Source of the DNA: an uncultured Alphaproteobacteria bacterium
GTDB lineage: Bacteria > Pseudomonadota > Alphaproteobacteria > UBA7985
Length of the DNA: 64,000 bases
NCBI GenBank assembly: GCA_905479265.1
Contig: CAJQLX010000023.1
Span: 1 to 64,000, forward strand
Direction: 5' to 3'
The notes below the pieces were generated by a model, which was given only the letters and a program-made list of their open reading frames with translations, ran no database searches and was not told the origin of the DNA. Both the position numbers and the translations under genes were made by a program. This document shows positions 17,772-34,870 of this stretch, piece after piece (within the stretch, counting starts at the first letter, position 1; each line of letters begins with the position of its first letter).

Positions 17772-18866
17772 CTATTTGCGCTTGGGCGTGCCTTTTTTAC
17801 CGGCGCGGCCGGAATGCGGCGATGAATCTGATCCACGCAGCGACTCACCCGACCCGCGATGGCTCGGTCGCTCTGCGCCATGACCCCGGCGGCCTTCGCC
17901 CATAAAGGGTGCGCGCGGCTTCATTGATGCCGCTGGTCCGCCCCGTGGACGGAACTTGCCACCTTGGAGATCAAAGCGTCCATGCACTCGGCCCTGCAAG
18001 CCATAGAGCCCCGGATCAGACTGACCACTCACGCCCGGCAACCGCACGGGATAGCCATCGACAAACAGCAGATCGTCCTGCTCACCGGGCAGTCCCGTCA
18101 GAAACAGCGAACCAACGCGGCTGGCGTCAAAGATTGCAAGCGGGCGAACACTGACAGCCCGCGCAAACATTTGGGGCGGCGAACGGTCGAGCAGCGGTCC
18201 CTGCACCGTCGCTCGGGTTCCAGCTTGCAGTCTTTGACCCTCCGACATCAAAACCGAGATACCAGCAACCGTGCCATCACTCGACACAGCGCCCGTGATG
18301 ACCGCATCCCGCGTGCTCGTTGGCTGAATATTGGCGGCTTGAATATGGCCGCGGTGATCCCGCAGGCCGGTGACGACCACCCAATCACCAATCCCCAGCG
18401 CGCTGGAATCTGTCAGACTTGAGACAATGACCTTCTGCCCCAGAATGCTGAGCGCCCATCGTCCACGGCCTTGGTCCATGTGATCGATCGGCCCGACCAA
18501 AGCCAAACTCGCGTCAATTCGGCTCGCTTGCAGCGAACCATCTGCCGCTTCAAAGGCCTCGATTGCCACCGTTTGACCCAGCGTAAGGTCTGACTCGCCC
18601 GCTGGCTGTCCGTTCAGCGTGATGTGCGCCGAGGAAGGAATTTCGACCTTCACGTCGTTCACCCAAATGGATGAAAAGCCTTCGATAAGACCAAAGATCC
18701 CCGTCCCACCAATGCCGGATTCAATCCCGGTGCCACCAATGCCGGCGTCGATACCCGTGCCGCCAATGCCAGACCCCGCTTGCCCCCAGCCAACGCTTGG
18801 AAGCGAGAGCGCAGAGCCGGCAAGAAGGGAAAGGGCGGTGCGTCGGGTTAGGCGATTTCGCCTCAT
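17772..18866 (-). CDS. DUF5666 domain protein with GIGGTGI repeats, exported
   Basis: A 364-aa exported protein of unknown function. The N-terminus carries a twin-arginine-like signal (TRRTALSLLAGSALSLP) and ends near SVGWGQ. Right after it come three GIGGTGI repeats spaced by 10 residues (about 33-57). The body (60-290) consists of repeated small beta modules of the DUF5666 type, with lines such as LGIGDWVVVTGL and LTLGQTVAIEAFEA. The C-terminal 60 residues are rich in Gly, Arg, Ser and Pro and end in a basic KKGTPKRK tail. It overlaps the DUF6502 gene upstream by four bases, so the two form an operon. I recall these two families occurring together, but no activity is known to me. Confidence 0.72.
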   Translation of the reverse strand: MRRNRLTRRTALSLLAGSALSLPSVGWGQAGSGIGGTGIDAGIGGTGIESGIGGTGIFGLIEGFSSIWVNDVKVEIPSSAHITLNGQPAGESDLTLGQTVAIEAFEAADGSLQASRIDASLALVGPIDHMDQGRGRWALSILGQKVIVSSLTDSSALGIGDWVVVTGLRDHRGHIQAANIQPTSTRDAVITGAVSSDGTVAGISVLMSEGQRLQAGTRATVQGPLLDRSPPQMFARAVSVRPLAIFDASRVGSLFLTGLPGEQDDLLFVDGYPVRLPGVSGQSDPGLYGLQGRVHGRFDLQGGKFRPRGGPAASMKPRAPFMGEGRRGHGAERPSHRGSGESLRGSDSSPHSGRAGKKGTPKRK

Positions 18867-19696
18867 GTGTCAGCCTCGTCCTGATAGAAGTAGACCCCAA
18901 TACGAACCCGCTGCCCGCCAACATCCCCGGAACCGCCCGCCGACTGTCCCGTTTCTGGCGCTGATAAATCCACCATTTCTCTGAGCAAGTTCATGGCTGA
19001 CACCGATAAAGCCTCCCGCATGACCGTCACTGTTTGGGGTGACAGATCCCCGTTGAACATGGCCCGCTCGAAGAAACGCTCTTCGGCAGGCGCTGAGATG
19101 TTGTGCACCGCCGCGCTCAAGTGGTCGCCTACGTTGGCCGAAAGAAACTCGATGCTTTCAGTCGAGTTCGACTCTGGCAAATAAGCGCCCGCTGCCAAAC
19201 GGTAGGTGCCGTCTTGCAAATCTTCGACCAGACCGGCTGCAATAAGACCTTCCAGCACAGACTTTGCCCGCACCTCCGGACCAATCTCATCCACCAACTG
19301 CGCGAAACTCGGCCCATCGCTCCGCTTTGCCATGGGCAGCACCAGCGGGGCTCCCTCTTTGGAGAGGTATGAGCGGTTGGTGGACCATCGGGTCACGACG
19401 CGGGCCGACGGGCTGTCATTGGGCGTTCGCACGGTTTGCTCTGGGGCATCCTCGCGCTCTTTCATCCATCGTGAGATTTCCCGGCGGTGGATGCCGGTCG
19501 CGACGTGCAACGCGGATGTGGTGATCTTTGCACCCGTGCTCTCAAACTGCGTGAAAGCGGCTTCGAGCGTTGCGTCTCGCAAAGCCGTTTCCAACATCCC
19601 GTGCGACAACCCCATGCGAAGACCGCCATCAGCGAGTTCGTGCATCAGCCGACGGGCAGCAGCGAGATAAGCGATTTTTGGGTCTGTTTCAGTCAT
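18863..19696 (-). CDS. DUF6502 family protein with HTH-like N-terminus
   Basis: A 277-aa soluble protein that I assign to DUF6502. Residues 55-80 (ITTSALHVATGIHRREISRW) resemble a helix-turn-helix in which a target DNA helix would be read by HRREISRW. A second helical region at 125-165 is winged-helix-like (VRAKSVLEGLIAAGLVEDL and a following strand), and the C-terminus ends in a predicted beta strand GVYFYQDE. The gene overlaps the exported DUF5666 gene by four bases (ATGA) and precedes it. A cytoplasmic DNA-binding partner controlling its own operon is a reasonable inference, not a demonstrated function. Confidence 0.65.
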   Translation of the reverse strand: MTETDPKIAYLAAARRLMHELADGGLRMGLSHGMLETALRDATLEAAFTQFESTGAKITTSALHVATGIHRREISRWMKEREDAPEQTVRTPNDSPSARVVTRWSTNRSYLSKEGAPLVLPMAKRSDGPSFAQLVDEIGPEVRAKSVLEGLIAAGLVEDLQDGTYRLAAGAYLPESNSTESIEFLSANVGDHLSAAVHNISAPAEERFFERAMFNGDLSPQTVTVMREALSVSAMNLLREMVDLSAPETGQSAGGSGDVGGQRVRIGVYFYQDEADT

Positions 19697-29700: not shown

Positions 29701-30244
29701 CGCAGAAGACGTCAGCGACAAGGACATTGCCGCCTACGTTTTATACCCCAAAGTCTTCCTCGACTTCGCCAGCCACCGCCGCGACTTCGGCGATACGTCG
29801 CTGCTGTCCACCCCTGTATTCTTCTACGGCCCAGAAGTCGGCGAAGAGCTTTCTGTCGAAATCGATGCGGGTAAGCGGTTGATCATTCGCTTGCTCGCCG
29901 TATCCGACCCCGACGCCAAAGGCCGCCGGACGGTGTTCTTTGAGCTGAACGGTCAGCCTCGGAACGTGGTGGTTCAAGACGTTCATGCCGCCGCTGACAG
30001 CACCGCGCGCCCCGTTGCAACCGGTGCACCGGGCGAAGTCGCCGCGCCGATGCCGGGCGCGATCGTGACGGTTAACTTCAAAGTTGGCGACGAAGTGCAA
30101 AAGGGCGACGTCCTGCTTTCGCTTGAAGCCATGAAGATGGAAACCAGCGTTTATGCCGATCAAGACGGCAAGGTGGAAGAAGTCTTTATCAAAGCAGGCG
30201 ACCAAGTGGACGCCAAAGACCTGTTGCTGAAGTTCGAAGCATAG
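26783..30244 (+). CDS. pyc: Pyruvate carboxylase
   Basis: A 1153-aa single-chain biotin enzyme that converts pyruvate, bicarbonate and ATP to oxaloacetate (anaplerosis). The biotin carboxylase domain (1-460) has KLLVANRSEIAIRVFR, the glycine-rich ATP loop ASWGGGGRGMRRV and EVNPRIQVEHTVTEEVT. The carboxyltransferase domain (about 530-820) starts with TDTTFRDAHQSLLATRMRT. The biotinyl domain at the C-terminus has the EAMKMET lysine at about residue 1118. An upstream ATG at 26741 is in frame, but the ATG at 26783 precedes the conserved N-terminus and has GAGGA upstream, so it is preferred. Length is normal for the tetrameric alpha4 enzyme. Confidence 0.98.
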   Translation: MAPRPIRKLLVANRSEIAIRVFRGATELGIQTVAVYAHEDRFALHRFKADEAYEIGVGMEPIAAYLSVEEIIRVAKLSGADAIHPGYGFLSESPELAAAAEEAGIIFVGPKTQTLIDLGDKVASRKLAEAADVPTVPATDALPDGDDAANAAGQRVGLPVMVKASWGGGGRGMRRVYDADKLADEVGAAKREAAAAFGKDDVYLEKLIERARHVEIQVFGDTHGNVTHLFERDCSVQRRNQKVVEMAPATWLDEETRQGMCQAAVRLAKESGYQNAGTVEFLYDVNDGAFYFIEVNPRIQVEHTVTEEVTSVDIVKAQLLIAGGATLEEAGIPAEEEARRPRGVAIQCRVTTEDPENSFVPDYGKIVAYRSPAGFGVRLDGGTAFAGAVVTPHYDSLLAKVTVTAPDRDQGIARMSRALAEFRIRGIKTNLPFLQRVVRHDDFRTGVLTTRFIDDTPELFHFPTRRDRASKLLRFLSEVVVNGNPEMEGRPAVARAPLQRLPLVDADVQNRETAKMVFDRDGASGLVDWIKQQDRLLVTDTTFRDAHQSLLATRMRTADLVAPMTAYENGLRGLFSLEVWGGATFDVAYRFLKEDPWKRLAQMRQAAPSHLFQMLLRGSNAVGYTNYPDNVVKDFVTRAYDGGQGVDVFRVFDSLNWVENMRVAIDAVIDAGAICEATICYSGDVLSPSEDKYTLGYYVDMAKQFEAAGAHTLAIKDMAGVARPAAVAKLVQTLKGEVGLPIHFHTHDTSGGQVAAVLAASDAGVDIIDAAMDPLSGLTSQPNLGTIVESLRGLDRDTQLPRDTLDKISHYWEGARRHYAAFEADMRAGSSDVFEHAMPGGQYTNLRQQARSLGIEHRWPDVVKRYAEVNQLFGNIVKVTPSSKVVGDMALFMVSHNLTPEDVIDPEKEVAFPDSVVSFFRGDLGQPVGGFPEKLQAKVLRGEAPLSERPGASLPPVDFGKIRKELAETFGRAAEDVSDKDIAAYVLYPKVFLDFASHRRDFGDTSLLSTPVFFYGPEVGEELSVEIDAGKRLIIRLLAVSDPDAKGRRTVFFELNGQPRNVVVQDVHAAADSTARPVATGAPGEVAAPMPGAIVTVNFKVGDEVQKGDVLLSLEAMKMETSVYADQDGKVEEVFIKAGDQVDAKDLLLKFEA

Positions 30245-30250
30245 TCCATC

Positions 30251-30280
30251 CCCCGGCCAGCAGCATCGCTCTGGCCGGGG
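30251..30280 (+). terminator. Strong hairpin after pyruvate carboxylase
   Basis: CCCCGGCCAG and CTGGCCGGGG make a perfect 10-bp GC-rich stem with a 10-base loop, seven bases after the pyc stop. The following ATATTTCGTT is only a weak T-tract, so it may be a terminator or a 3'-end stabilising hairpin. The 174-bp gap up to the NadE-like gene holds nothing else recognisable. Confidence 0.6.
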
Positions 30281-30418
30281 ATATTTCGTTGGGCTGGCTT
30301 CACACAAGGCACGCATGACTTTGCATTGCGGCAGATTCCGGCTAAAAAGCGCGGGAATTTGGCGAGATCATCGTCCGGGGTTCACGCCGCCCCAATCACA
30401 GCTGTAGAGCACGTCTGA

Positions 30419-31801
30419 ATGGACCAACTCCGCATAGCGGTGGCGCAAATTAACCCGGTAGCCGGGGATATTTTGCGCAATCTCGATCTCCACATCGCTG
30501 CCTATGAAGAAGCCGCTGAAAACGCCGACTTGGTTGTTTTTTCGGAAGCCTCGCTGACGGGCTACCCGATTGGCGATCTCGCCTTGCACGAGCAGTTCCT
30601 GATGGACTGCATGGCGGCAAACGACAAGCTGGTTGAACGCACCAAAGGCGAAGGCCGTCCCGGAATTTTGTTTGGCAGCATCGTAGTTGATGAAACGGTC
30701 GACCCGGCTTTCTACGCCTATGCCTCAAAGCACCGCCGGATGAAGGGTAAGACCTTTAACGCAGCGATCATGGCTGAAAACGGCGAAGTGATTGGCAAGC
30801 GCTACAAGCGCTCCCTGCCAACCTTTGGCCCGTTTGACGAAGCACGATGGTTCGAACCCGGTCCCTTGCAGGGTCCAGTGATGTTTCGCGGTGCTAAAAT
30901 CGGCCTGCAAATCTGCGACGATGCATGGCGCGAAGATGGTCCCGAAACGCTGGAAGAAACCGGCGCGGACATGATGATTGCTCTCAATGGCTCAGGCTAC
31001 ACCGCCGACATCATGGACCAGCGCCTTGCGGCCATGAGTCGGCTGAGTCACGTTCACGGCTATCCCATCATTTACACCAACCTTGTGGGTGGACAGGACG
31101 GGATGGTGTTCGACGGCGGGGGCTTCTGCATCAATCCCGGCGGCGATTTTGCCGGTTGCTTTCCGCTGGCCGAAACTGGGGTTTTCAACACGCGCTGGAT
31201 GCGGGTTGAAGGCAAGTGGCGCTGCGTGTCTGCGCCCAAGGATGAGTTGGAAGCAAGCTGGGACGCCGTTGCCAAAGTCATTCGGCTGGGCGTAGCAGAT
31301 TTCGCCAGCAAGAACCGCCTGTCGGTCGAAGTCGCTGACGTCGCGCACCCGGCGACAGAGATGCTCAAAGCCTTAGTTCCAACCGTTGATTGGAAAGCGG
31401 GCAATACGCTAACGCTCCTGCCGTGGTCGAAAACAGATCTTGCCTTGGGCGAGTTCGAGAATCGGCACGGCATTGATGGCCCGCGCATGGCGCCCTTTGG
31501 TGACGTTTACAGCTCTGATTTATCGTCACTGGCCGAAGCGATGGGGGAAGACGCCCCGCCCGTGGGCAACACCGAGACCGATCGGCAGCTTCAAGCGCTG
31601 ATCGAGGACGAATTGTGCCTGAACAGCCTTGAAGACGAGGGCTTTCGCGTGGAAGCCTGCATTGACCTGTGGAAGCGGATTTCGCTATCGGAGTACAAAC
31701 GCCGGGTTGCCCCCGTTGTTCTTCGCTTGAGCCAGCGTGCGCTGGTGGGTGATCGTGCCTACCCCCTGACCAACCGCTACCGGCTCCCATCTGACCTTTA
31801 G
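30419..31801 (+). CDS. NadE-like protein: intact nitrilase/glutaminase domain, synthetase domain lacking its ATP-binding core
   Basis: A 460-aa relative of glutamine-dependent NAD+ synthetase. The N-terminal nitrilase domain (1-270) is well kept, with the Glu-Lys-Cys triad at E43 (VVFSEASLTGYP), K130 (KRSLPTFGPFDEARWF) and C166 (GLQICDDAW). The rest is only about 170 residues against about 290 in true NadE. The SGGIDS pyrophosphate loop and the TEENIQARxRG region are missing. Later elements are recognisable: WSKTDLALGEF (family GNKSEMAVGYA), APFGDVYSSDLSSLA and the terminal EYKRRVAPVVLRLSQRA with RAYPLTNRY. The frame is continuous, with no frameshift to explain the loss. It probably cannot make NAD+ and may act as a glutaminase/amidase or pseudo-enzyme. 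gltX starts 10 bases downstream. Confidence 0.8.
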   Translation: MDQLRIAVAQINPVAGDILRNLDLHIAAYEEAAENADLVVFSEASLTGYPIGDLALHEQFLMDCMAANDKLVERTKGEGRPGILFGSIVVDETVDPAFYAYASKHRRMKGKTFNAAIMAENGEVIGKRYKRSLPTFGPFDEARWFEPGPLQGPVMFRGAKIGLQICDDAWREDGPETLEETGADMMIALNGSGYTADIMDQRLAAMSRLSHVHGYPIIYTNLVGGQDGMVFDGGGFCINPGGDFAGCFPLAETGVFNTRWMRVEGKWRCVSAPKDELEASWDAVAKVIRLGVADFASKNRLSVEVADVAHPATEMLKALVPTVDWKAGNTLTLLPWSKTDLALGEFENRHGIDGPRMAPFGDVYSSDLSSLAEAMGEDAPPVGNTETDRQLQALIEDELCLNSLEDEGFRVEACIDLWKRISLSEYKRRVAPVVLRLSQRALVGDRAYPLTNRYRLPSDL

Positions 31802-31811
31802 GATTACTCCC

Positions 31812-33161
31812 TTGACCCCTCGCGTTCGTTTTGCCCCCTCCCCGACCGGCTGGCTCCACCTTGGAAACATCCGCACCGCTGTGATCAACTGGATGCACGC
31901 ACAGCAAGTGGGCGGCGAATTCCTGCTGCGGATTGACGACACCGATCCTGAAAGCAGCACCGAAGAATTCCGCTTGGGCATCGAGGAAGACATGACGTGG
32001 TTGGGCTTGGCGTGGGACAGCTACGCCAAGCAGTCCGAGCGTTTCCCCGAATATGACAAAGCGCGCGATGGTTTGATTGCGAGCGGTCGCCTCTATCCCT
32101 GCTACGAGACCGGCCCGGAGCTGGAGTTGATGCGCAAAACCGCGCAAATTCAGGGCAAGCCGTTCATTTACAACCGGACGGCCTATCCTTTGTCAGCCGA
32201 CGACGAAGCCAAGTTCAAAGCCGAAGGCCGCGACGCGCACTGGCGCTTCGCGCTCACGCCTGGCGAAATCAAATGGGATGATCTCGCACGCGGCGAAACC
32301 AGCTTCATGGCAGAAAATCTGTCTGATCCGGTGCTGATCCGGGGCGATGGATCTTACCTCTACACGCTGTGTTCAGTGTTGGACGACATCGACCTTGGGA
32401 TGACCGACATCATCCGTGGCGAAGATCACACCTCCAACACCGCAGCGCAAATCCAGTTGTTCCAAGCCTTGGCCGATCAGGCCGGGCTCAGCGACTTCCA
32501 GATGCCTCGATTTGCACACATGCCGCTGGTCAGCGGCGCTGATGGCGCAAAACTATCCAAGTCCAACGGCGCGCTGTCCATTCGCGAGTTACGCGAACAT
32601 GGCGGGCTGGAGCCACTGACGATCGTCGCCTTTCTCAGCCGCTTGGGGACTCCTGACGGTCCGCAGCCTGTCTCGGATATTACTGAACTGGCGTCATCCT
32701 TTAAAATCGAACGGTTTGGCCGCTCCGGCCCGCGCATGGATCCCGAAGAACTGGGGCCATTGAACAGTAAAATCGTCCGCCAGCTGCCTTTTGAGTCCGT
32801 CACTGATCGCTTTGAAGGCATGACACAGGCACAGTGGGCCGCCATTCAGCCGAACCTCGAAAAGCTCAGCGACGTCACCGACTGGCTCGCCCTCATCCAC
32901 GGCCCAGTAACGCCTGAAATCGAAGATCCGTCCTTCGCTGCGAAGGCGGCCGAGCTGCTGCCCGACGGTACGCTGGACGGGGACAGTTGGAAACTTTGGA
33001 CCGATGCCGTCAAGGACGCGACGGGCGCTAAGGGCAAATCGCTGTTTATGCCACTTCGCCTCGCTCTGACAGGGCAAGCACGCGGCCCCGAAATGGCCGT
33101 TCTTTTGCCGCTGATTGATCGTACGAAAATCGTCGCTCGCCTGAGTGGGCAAGCCGCCTAA
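31812..33161 (+). CDS. gltX: Glutamate--tRNA ligase
   Basis: A 449-aa class I aminoacyl-tRNA synthetase charging tRNA(Glu), and in organisms with GatCAB also tRNA(Gln). The HIGH signature appears as SPTGWLHLGN at residues 9-18 and the KMSKS signature as KLSKS at about 245. The glutamate-binding RIDDTDPESS is present. The start is TTG at 31812, with TTTAGGA nine bases upstream; the conserved TPRVRFAPSPTG leaves no room for a later start. It forms a run with the NadE-like gene and cysS. The length fits the shorter GltX type of alphaproteobacteria, in which a second gltX is common. Confidence 0.96.
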   Translation: MTPRVRFAPSPTGWLHLGNIRTAVINWMHAQQVGGEFLLRIDDTDPESSTEEFRLGIEEDMTWLGLAWDSYAKQSERFPEYDKARDGLIASGRLYPCYETGPELELMRKTAQIQGKPFIYNRTAYPLSADDEAKFKAEGRDAHWRFALTPGEIKWDDLARGETSFMAENLSDPVLIRGDGSYLYTLCSVLDDIDLGMTDIIRGEDHTSNTAAQIQLFQALADQAGLSDFQMPRFAHMPLVSGADGAKLSKSNGALSIRELREHGGLEPLTIVAFLSRLGTPDGPQPVSDITELASSFKIERFGRSGPRMDPEELGPLNSKIVRQLPFESVTDRFEGMTQAQWAAIQPNLEKLSDVTDWLALIHGPVTPEIEDPSFAAKAAELLPDGTLDGDSWKLWTDAVKDATGAKGKSLFMPLRLALTGQARGPEMAVLLPLIDRTKIVARLSGQAA

Positions 33162-34522: not shown

Positions 34523-34538
<16 letters not shown>

Positions 34539-34870
34539 GCTTCGCCTTGGGCGCGCTTTTGCTGCTCGCACTGTCCGCCTGTGACGCCACTGAGCCGGCT
34601 GACGGCGATGGCGAGCAAACGGTGATCGAGGGCCTTCCCGCTGCTGCGGATTTAACCAAAAACGACCCCGTCCGGTTTATCGAAATTAGCGGCCCGACCT
34701 TCTATGCTGTCTATAATCCCAAGGTCGTATCGGATGATGGGGTTCTCTGGCACAGTCACAAAAACTGTCCAGGCAGCCCACCAAACTATGCTTTTCCCGT
34801 TTCTGAACCGCAGAAACTGAGCGATGGCTTGCAGCGCGTGACAATGGCCTGCCAATATAAGCACAACTGA
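34523..34870 (+). CDS. Small lipoprotein of unknown function
   Basis: A 115-aa protein with a lipoprotein signal peptide (lipobox LSAC, cysteine at residue 20) and a short acidic linker. The mature domain of about 80 residues has two more cysteines (HKNCPGSPP and MACQYKHN), which probably form a disulfide. No family recognised. It overlaps cysS by 16 bases and has AGGAGG seven bases before the ATG, so the start is firm. The aromatic-rich middle (PTFYAVYNPKVV) suggests a small beta fold. Confidence 0.75.

Follow-up and report, generated by a model that had tools for sequence, protein, structure and literature searches.

NadE catalyzes the final step of the usual NAD pathway, and in known NadE proteins the glutaminase is far less active while the synthetase site is unoccupied. 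The glutaminase triad of Mycobacterium tuberculosis NadE consists of C176, E52, and K121, and E132 is the second glutamate; Y127 contacts glutamine and E177, and the first constriction is formed by F130, E132, P204, and Y58 (PMC6946656). When the P2 loop closes over the NaAD-AMP intermediate, this glutaminase is switched on by way of helix alpha-17 together with the YRE loop (PMC6946656). Separate glutaminase subunits serving a separate NAD synthetase exist in T. thermophilus, and bacteria without NadE are known, e.g., Haemophilus influenzae and F. tularensis (PMC3376133). Among the papers searched, none described a NadE lacking its PP-loop. Here, we describe a member of the nitrilase superfamily that derives from NadE and is linked to a probable replacement of the NAD pathway in an alphaproteobacterial genus.

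By tree and synteny, the gene is the same as that of glutamine-dependent NAD+ synthetase (NadE-Gln, NF010588/PRK13981; structures 3n05, 4f4h, and 5kha). Its product shares the glutaminase domain, the C-terminal tail, and the predicted overall shape (full-length AlphaFold2 [AF2] model superposed on 3n05, TM 0.80) but has neither PP-loop nor P2 loop, is ~100 amino acids shorter, and scores under the family cut-off. Like the type C glutaminase subunit of T. thermophilus, it is a glutaminase with no predicted active synthetase half in the chain; that subunit has an S-subunit partner, whereas in the genus none was found and the chain instead carries a remodelled remnant of the synthetase. Nitrilase-superfamily amidases (Nesterenkonia NitN, 5jqn, 3hkx) share the fold and the C-E-K-E set (TMt 0.79 to 0.80 over the domain) but lack the NadE-derived C-terminal domain. 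As in H. influenzae-type salvage, where NadR takes NR to NMN to NAD, a NadR-homologous NR kinase domain is present and NadE is unneeded; in the genus, however, kinase and adenylyltransferase are separate proteins, the latter being NadM-Nudix, and the transporter PnuC was not found.

Gene layout and predicted fold

The nadE-derived gene is a single uninterrupted frame of 460 codons at positions 30419 to 31801 (plus strand, as are its domains, the hairpin, and gltX below) of the window, i.e., the whole 64,000-nucleotide stretch of DNA analyzed, and its G+C content and third-position G+C are in line with those of its neighbors. The nitrilase-type glutaminase domain (CN_hydrolase, residues 5 to 246, positions 30431 to 31156) carries E43, K130, C166, and the second glutamate, E141; its Pfam match (PF00795, 62.7 bits; gathering score, 23.2) and complete catalytic residues place the protein in the nitrilase superfamily. 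This was the sole domain in a Pfam scan of the 460-amino-acid protein (P0001), in which NAD_synthase (PF02540) went undetected, and the NCBIfam NAD+ synthase model (PRK13981, NF010588) gave 254 bits against a curated cut-off of 479. Among solved structures, the best sequence matches were glutamine-dependent NAD synthetases.

A linker helix (residues 280 to 300, positions 31256 to 31318; helix 280 to 298 in the model) aligns with Y-A-LVLGLRDYV-KNGF of NadE. It is followed by the remodelled synthetase remnant (residues 301 to 395, positions 31319 to 31603), delimited by alignment and deletion map, in which the SGGIDS PP-loop and the P2-type KPPSAEL...LPPY loop are gone and the K of DxYKT is S365. 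The C-terminal helical tail of NadE closes the protein (residues 396 to 460, positions 31604 to 31798; identified by alignment and a phmmer match to 4f4h).

The AF2 model was built on 45 sequences, an earlier one from 13 sequences having been too poor (pLDDT 55.8), and predicted a compact two-domain fold (whole-protein pLDDT, 89.5; pTM, 0.91), with pLDDT mostly >90 in the glutaminase domain and dips to ~72 to 75 around residues 321 to 330 and 341 to 350. Short strands at 302 to 305, 330 to 333, and 356 to 358 are leftovers of the old Rossmann core in this model, which is drawn toward the NadE fold because its alignment consists mostly of full-length NadE.

A strong hairpin after pyc (positions 30247 to 30285; −30.4 kcal/mol over 30244 to 30300) is a likely terminator, and the nadE-like gene is probably the first of a gltX-cysS operon. 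Past cysS lies a 115-amino-acid open reading frame (34523 to 34870) that begins like a lipoprotein and has no match in Pfam. Elsewhere in the window, on the minus strand (17772 to 19696), DUF5666 and DUF6502 proteins are encoded side by side in frames sharing 4 bases.

Residues kept and lost relative to NadE

Residues were compared with those of 29 full-length NadE proteins, and deletions were mapped against NadE L010 from the same order. E43, K130, and C166 were invariant across the alignments and E141 was conserved too, so that the C-E-K triad and second glutamate typical of the glutaminase of glutamine-dependent NAD+ synthetase are all present. Of the strongly conserved glutaminase positions, 40 of 49 were unchanged in the genus; in the synthetase half, 21 conserved positions were unchanged, 42 substituted, and 30 missing. 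The original prediction, made from the window alone, had recognized a NadE relative with a complete triad and an identifiable synthetase-domain end, and both points held, with DVYSSDLSSLA, EYKRR, and RAYPLTNRY all aligning with that end. It had also put the loss at the SGGIDS loop plus about 120 residues around it; the loop is indeed absent, and the size was close, although the net loss is ~95 to 110 amino acids and is spread over two sites or more (the PP-loop region and the KPPSAEL...LPPY loop).

Relative to L010, blocks of 9, 70, 19, and 14 residues are absent. The 9- and 70-residue deletions take out LGLSGG together with the beta/alpha units between it and the ENIQAR helix, and the 19- and 14-residue deletions take out most of a 24-residue stretch. 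The NAD+ synthetase signatures are missing accordingly: the SGGxDS pyrophosphate loop of the N-type ATP pyrophosphatase domain from 6/6 orthologues, and the P2-type loop KPPSAEL...DQDSLPPY (equated by motif with the P2 of PMC6946656), which is replaced by APPVGNTETD. The N of TGNKSE and the K of DxYKT are also altered in the genus. Judged by the family's known chemistry, this sequence cannot form a NadE-type ATP/pyrophosphate site, and NaAD amidation activity is predicted to be absent, which bears out the earlier statement that the protein cannot adenylate NaAD.

Equivalences with M. tuberculosis NadE were set by profile alignment with 3dla. The genus retains C166, E43, K130, E141, F139, Y49, and S192, but in 6/6 members Y127 is replaced by F136, E177 by D167, and P204 by G193 (M. 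tuberculosis numbering first). These three positions are conserved in full-length NadE, except that the sister family already has V in place of P204. The YRE loop is altered as well (Y to F, V to P). Read from the alignment, the catalytic residues are retained while the ligand contact, gate, and tunnel mouth are changed and the activating P2 loop is lost.

Fixation in the genus and probable replacement of the NAD pathway

The same 460- to 461-amino-acid form, with the same junctions, occurs in all six genomes of the genus (78 to 90% identity); the members with public names (MED834, MED756, SP156, MED803, and MED755) are marine MAGs. Its dN/dS was ~0.05, against 0.03 to 0.06 for gltX, cysS, and pyc at the same distance and 0.04 to 0.06 for gltX and cysS alone, and the remnant (residues 306 to 395) had the lowest dN of the gene and a dN/dS of ~0.02 where dS was unsaturated; the ratios are rough because dS is high in most pairs (proportion of synonymous differences, 0.55 to 0.8). 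In the sole close pair (L034/L035; dS, 0.15), dN/dS was 0.07 overall, with zero amino acid changes in the remnant. Among 385 sampled alphaproteobacterial genomes, no other genus yielded the remodelled C-terminal half. In the glutaminase tree, the members of the genus grouped together (100/100), and NadE of a same-order family was their sister (98/90). The stem leading to the genus was long, at 1.69 changes per column, and the sequences beyond it are strongly conserved.

Large in-frame losses might suggest a decaying pseudogene or an assembly artefact, but the chance of either is negligible: length and junctions agree in six genomes, segments of the remnant are invariant, and the dN/dS and the six concordant genomes rule out a pseudogene. 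The original prediction had named an assembly deletion, or a full-length gene in close relatives, as grounds for giving it up. The former is excluded, since the same truncated form recurs in all six genomes; as to the latter, every genus member is truncated, and four relatives in the same order have full-length NadE. The gene is the nadE orthologue in its ancestral place, apparently turned into something else.

The gltX gene (glutamate--tRNA ligase; positions 31812 to 33161) starts with TTG at 31812, 10 bases past the stop codon, as had been reported from the window, and the order is the same throughout the genus. The suggestion attached to it, that adjacency to gltX hints at function, did not survive: in many alphaproteobacterial families, full-length nadE lies directly 5′ of gltX and is itself often preceded by a NAPRTase-like gene, so the adjacency is inherited and uninformative on function. 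A nadE beside gltX need not be an NAD synthetase, a point of caution for annotation. The NAPRTase-like gene adjoins nadE in G006, G007, G009, and G010 and is missing from the genus. Its product (L016:2305-3612 and nadE-adjacent homologues) matches only PF02749 (QRPTase_N) and, below cut-off, NAPRTase models, and is missed by PF04095. In MED755 (L036:9616-11239), gltX occupies two overlapping frames, probably through a sequencing frameshift.

A search for a second, complete nadE, proposed with the original prediction, found none in the six genus genomes: PF02540 returned only GuaA-type and other short or weak PP-loop matches (GuaA in the window's own genome), and no separate S-subunit for a two-subunit NAD synthetase. 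We estimate the chance of missing a present NAD synthetase gene in all six at ~1e-5, treating the genomes as independent (completeness 96, 82, 79, 72, 63, and 94%). NadC was not found in the genus or in four relatives of the order, and NAPRTase/NAMPT (PF04095) was not found in the genus, so nicotinamide salvage by NadV or PncB was rejected. NadD occurred in 1/6 genus genomes (G003), on a NadD-panC-mutM contig (L083, G003:C14) taken as a probable contaminant because the other five genomes lack NadD and G003 is rated 5% contaminated.

NadM-Nudix (NMN adenylyltransferase/Nudix) was present in 6/6 genus genomes (416 bits; NCBIfam cut-off, 397). In addition, 5/6 genus genomes and 0/4 order relatives encode a stand-alone kinase of the NadR C-terminal type (PF13521, 87 to 92 bits), a homologue of the kinase portion of H. 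influenzae NadR (1lw7). With an NR kinase (5/6, function by homology), an NMN adenylyltransferase, and no NadE, the gene set resembles the NaAD-free pathway of H. influenzae, apart from the transporter (PnuC, PF04973, none in G000 to G005). The likely NAD route of the genus, as read from gene content, is NR to NMN to NAD without NaAD. Such a route makes NadE dispensable and apparently explains the loss of the synthetase half. These genomes record both that a pathway step was lost and what became of its enzyme: the substrate route and the ATP half are gone, and the ammonia half is kept under selection. The NadM-Nudix gene (L099:8404-9759, G000:C5) adjoins an acyltransferase gene and, in G000, a CoxD/CoxE-like, XdhC, and MobA-like cluster, and the kinase gene (L129:9137-9706, G000:C20) lies directly 3′ of a dihydrolipoamide dehydrogenase gene.

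Candidate functions of the protein

Our preference, held with some reserve, is for a free-standing, exapted glutaminase or amidase, freed from activation by NaAD-AMP and acting on a putative substrate. From the computed origin, losses, conservation, gene content, and residue changes, we infer an order of events, a catalytic course, a substrate, and constitutive activity as follows. The lineage would have swapped the NaAD route (NAPRTase, NadD, and NadE) for NR kinase plus NadM-Nudix, leaving NaAD amidation unneeded. The synthetase half would then have lost its ATP/pyrophosphate and P2 loops and been rebuilt as a small, strongly conserved domain, and the glutaminase half would have retained its catalytic residues while those holding glutamine and gating the ammonia tunnel changed. 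Given the lost P2 and the changed YRE loop, the simplest mechanism would be a glutaminase or amidase that the synthetase half no longer controls. C166 may attack glutamine or a related small amide, forming a thioester with release of ammonia; the thioester would be hydrolyzed to the acid, and the remnant domain may be a scaffold or oligomer interface.

The same losses could be read the other way. Because the glutaminase of known NadE is much weaker without an occupied synthetase site, loss of P2 could equally lock the activity off, and because in M. tuberculosis Y127 is in contact with glutamine and E177 is part of the gate lining, their replacements could mean another substrate or no catalysis. 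The genus is a natural setting for testing whether the synthetase half of NadE controls the glutaminase via the P2 and YRE loops. There is also a modest chance that this is a new NadE-made family in which, once the whole genus had given up NaAD-based NAD synthesis, the dead synthetase half turned into a conserved domain for regulation or docking that controls the old glutaminase, with a new reaction or partner.

An amidase, an ammonia supplier, and a regulator had all been proposed from the window, and all three are still live options. It is doubtful that the protein is a glutaminase subunit passing ammonia to a partner synthetase or amidotransferase, with the remnant as docking surface: T. 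thermophilus supplies a precedent, and the remnant is conserved above the catalytic half, as an interaction surface should be, but the six genomes encode no NAD synthetase partner (PF02540), no candidate partner was found, and the linked gltX and cysS require no ammonia and are neighbors by inheritance. A glutamine sensor or regulator with weak or no catalysis, acting, e.g., via PII or on NAD or nitrogen metabolism, would fit the genus-wide alteration of ligand and gate residues, and PII is known to target glutamine-dependent NadE (PMC7196632); the strict retention of four nitrilase catalytic residues, unneeded in a pure sensor, makes it improbable. That the protein still aids NAD making, e.g., by amidating NaAD or NaMN with a new ATP site, is very hard to credit: the genus has no other NadE-derived protein, but the PP-loop, P2 loop, N-K-S-E, and K of DxYKT have been deleted or altered, an NaAD-free route is present, and with NAPRTase, NadC, and, in 5/6 genomes, NadD lacking, the substrate is probably not made.

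Replacement of the canonical glutaminase GlsA by the NadE-derived protein was considered and rejected; PF04960 is missing from the genus and its relatives alike, so its absence does not discriminate. In the sister family of the same order, which has full-length NadE, L009 and L016 carry V for P204 and L for a nearby conserved K, so the change at the gate may predate loss of the synthetase.
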